A stretch of 64,000 bases of DNA, taken from Kofleriaceae bacterium (GTDB lineage: Bacteria; Myxococcota_A; Polyangia; Haliangiales; Haliangiaceae). Both the position numbers and the translations under genes were made by a program. The notes below the pieces were generated by a model that was not told the origin of the DNA, made no database searches, and worked only from the letters and a program-made list of their open reading frames with translations. The stretch covers positions 1 through 64,000 of the forward strand of contig JANTGM010000006.1 in the NCBI GenBank assembly GCA_024762925.1, written 5' to 3'. This document shows, piece after piece, positions 49,956 to 54,142 of the stretch (the stretch's first letter is position 1; every line of letters starts with the position of its first letter).

Positions 49956-50687
49956 CTATTGGTCGGCAACCATGCGGTTTGCGTTTTCCAGGTCAGCCGC
50001 GTCATCGATTTCGGTCCACTGGCATCCCGTTACATCCGCAACTTCGTAGGGAGCGCCGTTTTGGATGAGGCGCTCATATGCGCGCTCGTAATACTCATCT
50101 GTCTCGCCGATCTCAATGAGTTCACGGAGCATGTCGAAGACAGGTTTGCAAAGCTCCGCATCCACGCGGTCGACGCCAATGTACTCGCCTACAGCAACTG
50201 ATGGCTCCATGCGCTTGTTGAGCTCAAGAATCTTGCCATCGGCATCAACGCGCACCTTCATCTCCTCTTCGCCCATTCCATCACGACAGTCGACAGCGAG
50301 GACACCTGGTCCCGCACATGCCAAGACCTTGGGCAGCACCGTTTCGTCCATTAGGAGGTCACCATCAAGCTTCACAAATGCCGAGCCTGCGACGGCTTCT
50401 TCGGCAACCAAGAGCGAGTAGAAGTTGCCCATGTCAGAGAAGCGATCGTTGTGGACGAAGACAGCTTTCTTGGCGAGTGGATGATCAATCTTTGCGACAT
50501 GGTCTCGAAGTGCTTCTGCACAGTAGCCCGTGACAATGATGACCTCGTCGATTCCCGCTTGAGCGCTTCGTTCGATCAGGCGATCAACAAGCGGCCGGTT
50601 TCCGACAGGCACCATGCACTTTGGCAGGCCTCCCGACACCGCTTCCAGTCGCTTACCCATTCCCGCTGCAAGGATGATCGCTTTCAT
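49956..50687 (-). CDS. Sugar/choline-phosphate-type nucleotidyltransferase
   Basis: A 243-residue protein with the NTP-transferase signature IILAAGMGKRLEAVSGGLPKCM (4-25), KLDGDLLMD (about 112-120, metal Asp) and GEYIGVDRV. It resembles LicC-type CTP:phosphocholine and CTP:phosphonate cytidylyltransferases. The ATG at 50687 starts at the family N-terminus; a GTG at 50705 is in frame. Divergent to the AEP-transaminase fusion gene, with which it probably acts, activating a 2-aminoethylphosphonate or similar head group with CTP. Confidence 0.82.
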   Translation of the reverse strand: MKAIILAAGMGKRLEAVSGGLPKCMVPVGNRPLVDRLIERSAQAGIDEVIIVTGYCAEALRDHVAKIDHPLAKKAVFVHNDRFSDMGNFYSLLVAEEAVAGSAFVKLDGDLLMDETVLPKVLACAGPGVLAVDCRDGMGEEEMKVRVDADGKILELNKRMEPSVAVGEYIGVDRVDAELCKPVFDMLRELIEIGETDEYYERAYERLIQNGAPYEVADVTGCQWTEIDDAADLENANRMVADQ

Positions 50688-50786
50688 GGGGCGAAGCGTT
50701 ACCACGAGATGTGCCCTGCATGTAGTGAGGTAAGTTCAACCTATTTGCGTTGCACCAGCTCCGCTGTTGAGCATGTGGGATAATGT

Positions 50787-50803
50787 GGTGGTGAACTACC
50801 ACC
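50787..50803. promoter_or_regulatory. Inverted repeat in the divergent phosphonate promoter region
   Basis: GGTGGT-GAACT-ACCACC (50787-50803) lies midway between the divergent nucleotidyltransferase and transaminase genes. Nearby are GTTCAAC at 50734-50740 and TTGAAC at 50818-50823 and 50841-50846, and a TATAGT (-10-like) at about 50848-50853. It may be an operator. Evidence is sequence symmetry only. Confidence 0.35.
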
Positions 50804-50893
50804 TAGGTGTCAGTTTTTGAACAGATTCTTAGGTAAGTAGTTGAACTTATAGTGTGGGTCGATTCTTGCTCAGAGGGCGTCTGAGGTAATCAC

Positions 50894-52741
50894 ATGATCA
50901 CACGCGCAATTGTACTCGCTCATCGCATGGTTCTTGAGGGTGGCAGCACCCTCTCCGCATCTATGATCGGCATGGTGCGTCGCTCGCTAACCACACTCCA
51001 CCAAGCTGGCATTCGGGATGTTGCCGTCGTCGATGGTGAGCATGCCGAAGAGCTCCTTGAACGCCTAAATGTCCATGAGCTTACCGGAATGCGTGTGCGC
51101 TGCTACTCCAATCGCAGCTGGCGGCAGGCAAGTGGTTCCGCCGTTCTCATTGCCAAGGATTTCCTTGAGGCTGATCCCAGCCCATGCCTCATTCTTCGTG
51201 GTGATCGTCCTCTGGCCCAAGAGGCACTAGCCGAGCTTTGCAGCACCGATCTAGGAACCAACATCGCCTCCATTTGTGTTTCCACTCCGCCCACCGCTGA
51301 CCTTAGCGAGGAGTACAAAGTCAAACTTCGCAGTGGTCGCACAGGGAAGGGCGTTGCAAGTCTTGGCCTTGACCTAAGCGACTTTGATGCGGTCTACACA
51401 GGCCACGCTCTGGTAACGCGCGAATTGCTTGTCGAGCTAGAGAAACTCAGTAACCCGCACCTTGAAGATGCCTTCAACGCTCTGGCTGTTGCTGGGCGTG
51501 TTCGCATGCAGATGGGACGCACAGCTTGGCCATGGGGCATGAGCAATCCCGCTTCTCTCGACGCCGAAGTCAGCGCGATTCTCGAGAGCAAGCAGCACCC
51601 GGAATACACGCTTCTCAACCCAGGGCCAGTAAACACCACAGCTCGTGTGAAGAGCGCCATGGTTCACCACGATGTGTGCCACCGTGATCCAAGCTTTAGC
51701 GAGCTCATGGTTTCTCTCACGGGCAAGCTTCGCCGAGTGTTTCGCGCCAGCGCCGAGCACACCATGTGTGTTGTCACCGGCAGCGGCACAGCTGCCATGG
51801 AGTGTGGCATTGCCTCCACAGTGCCTCGCGATGGAAAAATTCTAATCATCGACAATGGCGCCTTCGGTGAGCGAATGCACGAGATTGCTCGATTGCACGA
51901 GATGAACATCGTGCATCTTCGCTATGCATGGGGCGATCAAGTAAACCCCGCTGACGTTGCGCGCGCCATCGAAGAGAATCCCGACATTGCGGTCGTCGCC
52001 ATGACCGCTCACGAAACCTCTGTTGGTCTTCTCAACCCAGTTCACGCTGTAGGCGAGGTTTGCCAACAGTACGATGCTCTCTTCCTTGTCGATGCTGTGA
52101 GTGCTCTTGGCGCCGAAGACATCGATGTTGTTCGCGACCACATCGACGTGTGCTGGGCGAGTGCCAATAAGTGTCTGCACGCCATCAGTGGTGCGGGCTT
52201 TCTCAGCGTTTCGCCGCGTACATGGCAGAAGATTGAGAACGTCAAGCCTCGCTCGTACTACCTCGATCTCAAGCGATACCGTCGCTACGTTGAGGAGCTT
52301 GCGCAGACGCCATTTACCCCAGCTGTCTCGGCGTACTTTGCTCTTGATGCCGCTCTTGGGGAGTTCCTAGCTGATGGTCATGAAGCCCGCATCACCATGT
52401 ATCGTGAGCGCAATCAGCGCCTTCGCCGTGGGCTCGCCAATCTCGGAATGGCACCCCTCACTCGCACAGGCAACGAGTCTCACTCAGTCGTGACATGCTG
52501 TGTGCCTGCGGGCGTCACCTTCCAAGAGTTCTACGACGCCCTCAAGGTACGTGGCTACATCGTCTATGGGTGCAAAGATGTGCTCGCAGAGAAGTTCTTA
52601 CAGGTAGCCAACATGGGTGACCTCAGCATCGAGAAGATTGACCAATTCCTCGCTACCGCTGGTGAGGTAATCGGCGAGCTCCGCGCAGCGCGCAACGCTC
52701 GTGGCGAGGCTATCGAGCTTCCAGCTCGCGCATCCGCATAG
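50894..52741 (+). CDS. phnW: NTP-transferase-like domain fused to AEP-pyruvate transaminase
   Basis: A 615-residue fusion. Residues 1-230 have a nucleotidyltransferase-like fold (ILRGDRPLAQEAL near 103-115, as in inositol-phosphate cytidylyltransferases). The usual GxGxR signature is missing: the N-terminus reads ITRAIVLAHRMVLEGGS. Residues 236-600 form a class V PLP aminotransferase with PhnW-type YTLLNPGPVNTT, HHDVCHRDPSFSEL, DAVSALGAEDID and Lys in SANKCLH (K426, likely Schiff base). It may make or recycle 2-aminoethylphosphonate from phosphonoacetaldehyde and alanine. It is divergent from a cytidylyltransferase, suggesting phosphonolipid or phosphonate-modified surface polymer synthesis. 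Confidence 0.88.
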   Translation: MITRAIVLAHRMVLEGGSTLSASMIGMVRRSLTTLHQAGIRDVAVVDGEHAEELLERLNVHELTGMRVRCYSNRSWRQASGSAVLIAKDFLEADPSPCLILRGDRPLAQEALAELCSTDLGTNIASICVSTPPTADLSEEYKVKLRSGRTGKGVASLGLDLSDFDAVYTGHALVTRELLVELEKLSNPHLEDAFNALAVAGRVRMQMGRTAWPWGMSNPASLDAEVSAILESKQHPEYTLLNPGPVNTTARVKSAMVHHDVCHRDPSFSELMVSLTGKLRRVFRASAEHTMCVVTGSGTAAMECGIASTVPRDGKILIIDNGAFGERMHEIARLHEMNIVHLRYAWGDQVNPADVARAIEENPDIAVVAMTAHETSVGLLNPVHAVGEVCQQYDALFLVDAVSALGAEDIDVVRDHIDVCWASANKCLHAISGAGFLSVSPRTWQKIENVKPRSYYLDLKRYRRYVEELAQTPFTPAVSAYFALDAALGEFLADGHEARITMYRERNQRLRRGLANLGMAPLTRTGNESHSVVTCCVPAGVTFQEFYDALKVRGYIVYGCKDVLAEKFLQVANMGDLSIEKIDQFLATAGEVIGELRAARNARGEAIELPARASA

Positions 52742-53009: not shown

Positions 53010-53387
53010 GTGCGTTACCTGTATCACCGAGGCTACGATTTCGGGCGAGGGATTCCCTTTGTAAAGGAGGTGCACGGCTTTGTGCTGAACAAGCCAGCAC
53101 AGATTCGCTCAAGGCTCTTGCAAATCGGCACCGCTGTGCCAAGCGATTTCGAACGCCCACCAAGACTCCAAGAGACAGAGTTGTCCGCGATTCACACCGC
53201 CAAAGTGCTCGCAGGGCTGCGCTGTGCGCGGGCGATTGCGCAGGCGGGCGAGCTCTCGCCTCTCAAGTATGTTCCCAAGGTTGCAAGTGACCTAGATGTG
53301 GGGCTTCATGGTGCGGTCCAGGATGCCGAATACCTGGAGGCGGTGCCATGGCGCAAGTTGCAAAAGGTCGCTAAGAACTATGCTTAG
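53010..53387 (+). CDS. Short protein resembling the N-terminus of a histone deacetylase-family enzyme
   Basis: A 125-residue protein starting MRYLYHRGYDFGRGIPF, then LNKPAQIRSRLLQ and ELSAIHTAKVLAG. This matches the general pattern at the start of acetoin utilisation/HDAC-type proteins (YHPxYDx..P, and a SeeeLLxVHtxeYL segment). The catalytic core with the metal Asp/His (HHA, DVDVHHG) is absent; the gene ends in KVAKNYA just as the GDPD gene begins on the other strand. Likely a truncated gene, perhaps a remnant. The 5' side abuts element D, which may have separated it from its promoter. Confidence 0.5.
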   Translation: MRYLYHRGYDFGRGIPFVKEVHGFVLNKPAQIRSRLLQIGTAVPSDFERPPRLQETELSAIHTAKVLAGLRCARAIAQAGELSPLKYVPKVASDLDVGLHGAVQDAEYLEAVPWRKLQKVAKNYA

Positions 53388-54142
53388 TAGAACGCAGGGG
53401 CAATAGCCTTTGGGTCATCCGTCATGATGCCATCGGCGCCGAGCGCAAGAAGCGTCTTTGCTTTCTCGAGAGAATTAATCGTCCAGAAATCCACTCTCGC
53501 CCCCACCGCATGAAGCTTGGCAATGCTCTCCCGAGTTGCCAGTTGGATGGAGCCCACGCTTGTTGGTATCTGCGCGGCCCTTCCGCGATACGGCCAGGGG
53601 TTCACGAGCCATGAGGGCGCAAAGAGCGCAGCGCCAAGCTCAATTGGCCCCATCACCGTCGTGCCCGAGTAGCCCGCTAGCCGGACGTGAAGCACCGTTG
53701 CCTGAGAAAAACTCCCAAGCACGACTCGGTCTTCGGCACCAGCGTCGCGCACAATCCGCAGGACCTTTCTAACAATTGAAGGCGAGTGCTGCTTCAAATC
53801 GACGTTTATGAGCGTGTCGGGAAAGTGCTCCAGGATTTCCGCAAACCTGGGAATTCGAAACTCGCCTCCCGCGAAAGGGCGATTGCCATCAGCATCAACA
53901 AAGCCCCATCCTGCATCCCAGTTGCGAACCTGAGAGTAGGGCGTGTCTTTTAGCGCGAGAGACTCTCGGCACATTCGCTGCCCATCTGGATCATGTGAGA
54001 CAACGACTTCACCATCACTCGTTGCATGCACATCCATCTCGAGAGCGTGCACCCCATATGTTAGTGCGCGTTCAAAGCTCAAAATGGTGTTCTCGGGCAG
54101 CTCGGCAGCGGCCCCGCGATGGGCGTAGAGCCGCCGCGTCAC
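53384..54142 (-). CDS. Glycerophosphodiester phosphodiesterase (GDPD)
   Basis: A 252-residue protein with the GDPD TIM-barrel pattern: YAHRGAAAELPENT (H8 catalytic), ALEMDVHATSDGEVVVSHDPDG (metal E35 and D37, catalytic H50), INVDLKQH, WTINSLEKAKTLLALGADGIMTDDP. It hydrolyses glycerophosphodiesters to glycerol-3-phosphate and alcohol. No signal peptide. GTG start overlaps the preceding SlyD-like gene's stop by 4 bases (GTGA), so they form a small operon. The 3' end overlaps the HDAC fragment on the opposite strand by 4 bases. Confidence 0.93.
   Translation of the reverse strand: MTRRLYAHRGAAAELPENTILSFERALTYGVHALEMDVHATSDGEVVVSHDPDGQRMCRESLALKDTPYSQVRNWDAGWGFVDADGNRPFAGGEFRIPRFAEILEHFPDTLINVDLKQHSPSIVRKVLRIVRDAGAEDRVVLGSFSQATVLHVRLAGYSGTTVMGPIELGAALFAPSWLVNPWPYRGRAAQIPTSVGSIQLATRESIAKLHAVGARVDFWTINSLEKAKTLLALGADGIMTDDPKAIAPAFY

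Follow-up and report, generated by a model that had tools for sequence, protein, structure and literature searches.

Two divergent open reading frames (ORFs), 188 bp apart, lie in the window, the stretch of 64,000 nucleotides analysed here, which belongs to the draft genome of an uncultured myxobacterium (6.79 Mb, 98.3% complete, 246 contigs). Both ORFs were confirmed at the coordinates listed below. The ORFs and domain matches bore out the architecture claimed in an earlier note on this DNA, a divergent pair in which one gene fuses a nucleotidyltransferase (NTase)-like domain to a transaminase.

49956..50705, minus strand: separate cytidylyltransferase, LicC/PntC-like, intact (ORF of 249 aa)
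50706..50893, no strand: divergent intergenic region of 188 bp, presumed from the gene layout to be the promoter region of both genes
50894..52741, plus strand: fusion protein of 615 aa, with a decayed NTase domain in front of a class V PLP transaminase domain
50894..51595, plus strand: N-terminal domain of the fusion, decayed NTase of the inositol-1-phosphate cytidylyltransferase (IPCT) type (profile match, residues, tree and dN/dS)
51596..52738, plus strand: C-terminal class V PLP transaminase domain of the fusion, Gln-type subfamily (PF00266, TIGR03301, own clade)
52169..52171, plus strand: codon of the PLP lysine K426 (SANKCLH), which the alignment places on the lysine of SANKCIQ in PhnW
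52601..52603, plus strand: codon of Q570 (FLQVANMG), Arg in all aligned comparators

The better start of the separate cytidylyltransferase is the ATG at 50687, which gives a protein of 243 aa. The fusion protein shares 81% and 79% identity with its counterparts in two genomes of the same genus, 50–63% over the full or nearly full length in further genomes, and approximately 40% in distant families. Their conservation across 22 genomes shows the ORFs to be true genes rather than chance ORFs. The family was present in 22 of the 56 relatives searched (transaminase identity 39–81%). In a phylum-wide sample, matches at E ≤ 1e-60 were found in only 9 of 284 genomes, and 2 of these 9 genomes hold more distant Arg-type transaminases.

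The separate cytidylyltransferase

The separate cytidylyltransferase matched PF12804 with 55.9 bits. Its best match in the PDB was LicC (1jyk), although the similarity was low (61.5 bits, first half only); 6pd1 scored 47.7 bits. The earlier note had called the enzyme active-looking, and this was upheld: GMGKRLEAVSGGLPK and every catalytic position are present, including the equivalents of R15, K25, D106 and K153 of Treponema denticola PntC (an RK.DK. pattern). The catalytic positions of the separate enzyme are fully conserved.

In PntC and LicC, the amine of the substrate is contacted at two positions (PMC6697681). In the separate cytidylyltransferase these are Asp and Glu, the first shared with LicC, and all 10 aligned rows carried Asp with either Glu or Asp; the IPCTs have Met/Cys and Ser/Tyr. 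The acid pair hints at an amine-bearing substrate, and hence at a link between the separate enzyme and a transaminase. It is no proof of an amine, however, since the NTP transferase proposed for CDP-inositol synthesis in Bacteroidetes is also LicC-like (PMC9246714).

Descent and decay of the fused domain

The fused domain of the window was degenerate, as the earlier note had stated. The GxGxR is gone, the motif GXG(T/S)RX4-8PK is missing, and the equivalents of K25 and K153 are both Leu. By sequence alone, the best match was the IPCT structure 2xme, which was weak (E 0.02); by profile, the decayed domain matched the IPCTs at 98.7% (E 3e-16, 221 columns). The fused domain is intact in two relatives, G038 and G055, where GRGSRLVNGSGIPK is present and the key residues are RKMDKS, as in IPCT. 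In both genomes the intact domain matched the CTP:inositol-1-phosphate cytidylyltransferase 2xme over its full length, with 95 bits for G055, where NF041135 gave 136 bits; no match of PntC to the intact domain reached E 1e-6. Similarly, in the tree the fused domain grouped with the IPCTs and not with 6pd1, for which long branches were noted. Judged by profile and tree, the fused domain descends from IPCT, not from PntC, and the proposal of a PntC-type fusion in the earlier note was not supported. The likeness to the T. denticola PntC-AEPT is therefore convergent, and the family points to a second origin of the architecture, out of an inositol-phosphate enzyme. Unlike IPCT, the domain of the window has no catalytic residues left, and its fusion partner is a transaminase, not a phosphotransferase.

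The loss is graded across the relatives. Among the f7 and f12 relatives, the motif is disrupted and another residue stands in place of its Lys. In the clade of the window, GxGxR and the equivalents of K25 and K153 are lost, and in G034, G041 and G049 the NTase domain itself is missing and the transaminase stands alone. No second NTase of the IPCT or separate type was found in G038 and G055, the genomes with the intact domain. A separate IPCT was found in the f11 and f12 genomes and the separate LicC-like type in the f1, f2, f4 and f11 genomes; relatives in the decay series mostly have another nucleotidyltransferase. Running from intact to absent, the fused catalytic domain provides a clear natural series for enzyme-to-scaffold evolution.

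By its residues, the fused domain of the window appears to have lost CTP chemistry and to be a non-catalytic relic. Its non-synonymous divergence was approximately twice that of the transaminase. The dN/dS was below 1 where computable (roughly 0.13 to 0.7, several dS values being saturated), and the domain is therefore under constraint, albeit a looser one than the transaminase. The decayed domain may serve the dimer. The Mycoplasma penetrans MetRS (PDB 9os7; PMC13215547) likewise has an NTase-like domain before a dimerising class V (AGAT-like) transaminase, and this tandem takes part in assembly; the M. penetrans protein differs in that it also carries MetRS and its transaminase makes methionine. 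AlphaFold2 prediction of the fusion from three sequences gave a mean pLDDT of 42.8. The N-terminal part of a linked CDP-alcohol phosphotransferase was also considered as another decayed NTase domain, but the match was not significant (44% probability, 34 columns).

The transaminase domain

The C-terminal domain of the fusion, TRANSAMINASE, is a class V PLP enzyme (PF00266, 84.3 bits, E 1e-23) in which the alignment shows the PLP lysine K426 to be kept. The best model was TIGR03301 (PhnW-AepZ), with 309.8 bits against a cut-off of 360.8, followed by PRK13479 (243.2, cut-off 296) and TIGR02326 (224.3, cut-off 400.8). The label of AEP-pyruvate transaminase in the earlier note thus stands in so far as AEP-transaminase models match best, and falls short in that every one of them scored below its curated cut-off.

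At a conserved Arg position, the alignment showed Gln in 21 of 21 members (FxQVANMG). The residue is Arg in Salmonella PhnW, 6pd1 (PntC-AEPT), 7e7g, 9kk8, 2dr1 and the paralogues aligning there. This Arg, R340 in PhnW and R360 in human AGT, binds the substrate's acid group. In the tree, the Gln-type members formed their own clade (96/91), separate from the one that contains PhnW and the transaminase domain of PntC-AEPT (100/99). The fused transaminase represents a subfamily of its own that had not been described.

Among the closest known systems is the T. denticola PntC-AEPT (Tde1415, PDB 6pd1/6pd2; PMC6697681), which also has an NTase domain followed by a class V transaminase (624 aa, against 615 aa in the window). 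The fusion of the window differs in the IPCT descent and decay of its NTase domain, in the clade of its transaminase and its Gln for Arg, and in that its genome has no PEP mutase. Among the sequences compared, Gln at the conserved Arg position tells the two kinds of fusion apart. It is easy to annotate a transaminase-nucleotidyltransferase fusion as a phosphonate (PntC) gene. The present family suggests that the architecture alone is no usable phosphonate marker, and it is a warning against such annotation.

In G034, a class III aminotransferase gene (L030, 10531–11928, minus strand) overlaps the start of the stand-alone Gln-type transaminase; PbfA was among its better but sub-threshold models.

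Phosphonate genes

The earlier note had placed the pair in phosphonate (AEP) head-group activation, had reported no PEP mutase or phosphonopyruvate decarboxylase in the window, and had proposed searching the genome for both. Their absence from the window was confirmed. The genome of the window, at 98.3% completeness, contained no member of the PEP mutase family (PF13714), and neither phosphonopyruvate decarboxylase nor phosphonatase exceeded its curated cut-off there. A genome without PEP mutase was one half of what the earlier note had named as refuting its reading, and this check thus went against the note. The motif EDKxxxxxNS of PEP mutase was present in only two of the 22 fusion-bearing genomes (G037 and G043), and a decarboxylase (G043) and a phosphonatase (G034) over the cut-offs in only one each.

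Two of these genomes serve as controls. On contig C291 of G043, a Ppm-NTase fusion, a decarboxylase, an NTase, an AEP-type transaminase and a CDP-alcohol phosphotransferase-like gene (recognised by eye, without a model) lie together; the Gln-type gene is on another contig, C343. Similarly, the phosphonatase of G034 lies beside an Arg-type PhnW on C55, and the Gln-type gene is away from it on C103. These layouts indicate that phosphonate chemistry in this group is served by another transaminase. With no PEP mutase, a transaminase below the cut-offs, Arg replaced by Gln and a clade of its own, phosphonate head-group activation was not supported, and phosphonate biosynthesis and catabolism were both rejected after searches of the genomes and comparison of residues and trees.

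GxGxR is also missing from the NTase domain that is joined to the true PEP mutase of G043 (L076, C291, 8363–9988, minus strand; ALVLAATGGNFGERGEMAK), so that the NTase may be inactive in at least one Ppm-NTase fusion.

Gene context in the relatives

An inositol-1-phosphate synthase gene was found close to the fusion in several relatives. It is divergent and approximately 275 bp away in G038 and G055, approximately 0.9 kb away in G021 and approximately 3.4 kb away in G012. By our estimate, the chance of a synthase within 4 kb is about 0.1–0.2% per genome (one synthase per 5–8 Mb), and the relatives that show this proximity fall into three separate families or genera. G030 has the fusion, CDP-alcohol phosphotransferase, inositol-1-phosphate synthase and NTase in this order; in G030 and G012, synthase, NTP transferase and phosphotransferase form a cluster. 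G021 has synthase and phosphotransferase beside the fusion, and G038 and G055 the synthase only. The loci of G010, G012 and G016 contain several CDP-alcohol phosphotransferases and a MOP flippase, and a flippase of the same type adjoins the stand-alone transaminase of G034.

A putative alternative inositol-lipid cluster of Bacteroidetes (PMC9246714) holds the same three genes together, namely inositol-1-phosphate synthase, a LicC-like NTP transferase and CDP-alcohol phosphotransferase, and the HAD protein in the clusters of some relatives likewise matches it. The two differ in that a term search of PMC9246714 gave no mention of a transaminase, and in that the genome of the window has these genes dispersed.

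The link to the pathway is made through the relatives only, because the phosphotransferases and the inositol-1-phosphate synthase of the window's genome sit on other contigs. This dispersal is the main weakness of the CDP-inositol-like reading. Furthermore, G034 has the transaminase, and no inositol-1-phosphate synthase match was found in it. The NTase-phosphotransferase pair also occurs in genomes without the transaminase, which is thus not needed for that step.

Proposed role and alternatives

In our reading, to which we give a probability of roughly 0.6, the gene pair belongs not to phosphonate metabolism but to a Kennedy-like CDP-alcohol pathway for head groups, of the CDP-inositol kind. 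The pair probably helps to build an unusual lipid head group by a CDP-inositol-like route. With CTP, the separate enzyme would activate a small phosphorylated polyol or amino-alcohol, CDP-alcohol phosphotransferases would transfer the head group to the lipid, and the MOP-type flippase seen in the relatives could carry the lipid across the membrane. The fused protein descends from an IPCT-transaminase fusion, which two relatives have kept intact. The N-terminal domain of the window's fusion, with CTP chemistry apparently lost and yet kept under constraint, is probably a structural part of the dimer. The C-terminal domain, a PLP transaminase by homology, would aminate a substrate other than phosphonoacetaldehyde; speculatively, the most plausible candidate is a keto-polyol or a keto-cyclitol drawn from the same pool of inositol phosphates.

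A plain LicC-like CDP-inositol synthase acting on inositol-1-phosphate, next to a transaminase engaged in unrelated amino-acid work, is an unlikely alternative. It would fit the G030 array and the role that PMC9246714 proposes for the LicC-like NTP transferase of a similar cluster. However, G041 and G049 have both the separate-type NTase and a separate IPCT-type enzyme, which suggests different substrates for the two; the amine-contact positions are unlike those of all the IPCTs compared; and the transaminase recurs in this context, either fused to IPCT or beside the NTase.

We consider it fairly improbable that the separate enzyme has the LicC function, as a phosphocholine or phosphoethanolamine cytidylyltransferase of the CDP-choline/CDP-ethanolamine route, with an ordinary transaminase of the serine/alanine-glyoxylate type that carries a relic domain. 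While LicC is the best PDB match and shares the first Asp (PMC6697681), the neighbour found in G030 is inositol-1-phosphate synthase and no choline gene, and the Arg typical of the serine/alanine-glyoxylate transaminase clade is missing. It is highly improbable that AEP is the product of the transaminase and CMP-AEP, destined for surface lipids or glycans, that of the separate cytidylyltransferase, with AEP precursors supplied from outside or by genes missed in the draft: the PhnW-AepZ model, the PntC/LicC catalytic and amine-contact residues and the resemblance to Tde1415 speak for it, but the lack of PEP mutase in a 98.3% complete genome and of decarboxylase and phosphonatase over the cut-offs, the change of Arg to Gln, the separate clade and the use of another transaminase by the relatives with phosphonate genes all speak against it.

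Within the CDP-alcohol reading, a tentative version, which on balance we regard as unlikely, is that a keto-inositol (phosphate) is the substrate of the Gln-type transaminase, and that the aminocyclitol phosphate so formed is activated by the linked cytidylyltransferase, leading through CDP-aminoinositol to an aminoinositol phospholipid. In this version, the IPCT domain turned into a scaffold without catalysis after a second cytidylyltransferase had become available. Should the transaminase indeed act on an inositol derivative, it would give access to bacterial lipid head groups of a new type. The open-access literature searched, outside which most subscription papers lie, yielded neither an IPCT-aminotransferase fusion nor a route to amino-inositol phospholipids. 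A bypass for phosphatidylethanolamine was ruled out by the PS decarboxylase in the window's genome and most relatives, and neither serinol phosphate nor glycolaldehyde phosphate, two further substrates that were considered, is favoured by any of the data.

Other neighbouring genes

Metallophosphoesterase, MDR dehydrogenase, class III aminotransferase and glycerophosphodiester phosphodiesterase neighbours were considered as clues to function and set aside as too weak, each occurring in few lineages. In the window, the glycerophosphodiester phosphodiesterase gene (53384–54142, minus strand; assigned by eye) is the convergent neighbour of the fusion, and a homologue lies near the fusion in five genomes (G000–G003 and G030). 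A second, more distant class V transaminase was seen within approximately 5 kb of the inositol-1-phosphate synthase in G016 (L112), G012 (L113), G010 (L114) and G021 (L115). Three f7 genomes carry an MDR-type alcohol dehydrogenase gene after the fusion and on its strand, in two cases as the immediate neighbour:

L032, 10638–11669, plus strand: MDR-type alcohol dehydrogenase
L033, 8230–9267, minus strand: MDR-type alcohol dehydrogenase
L034, 3629–4693, minus strand: MDR-type alcohol dehydrogenase

Scyllo-inosose 3-dehydrogenase was among the sub-threshold models of this f7 dehydrogenase.
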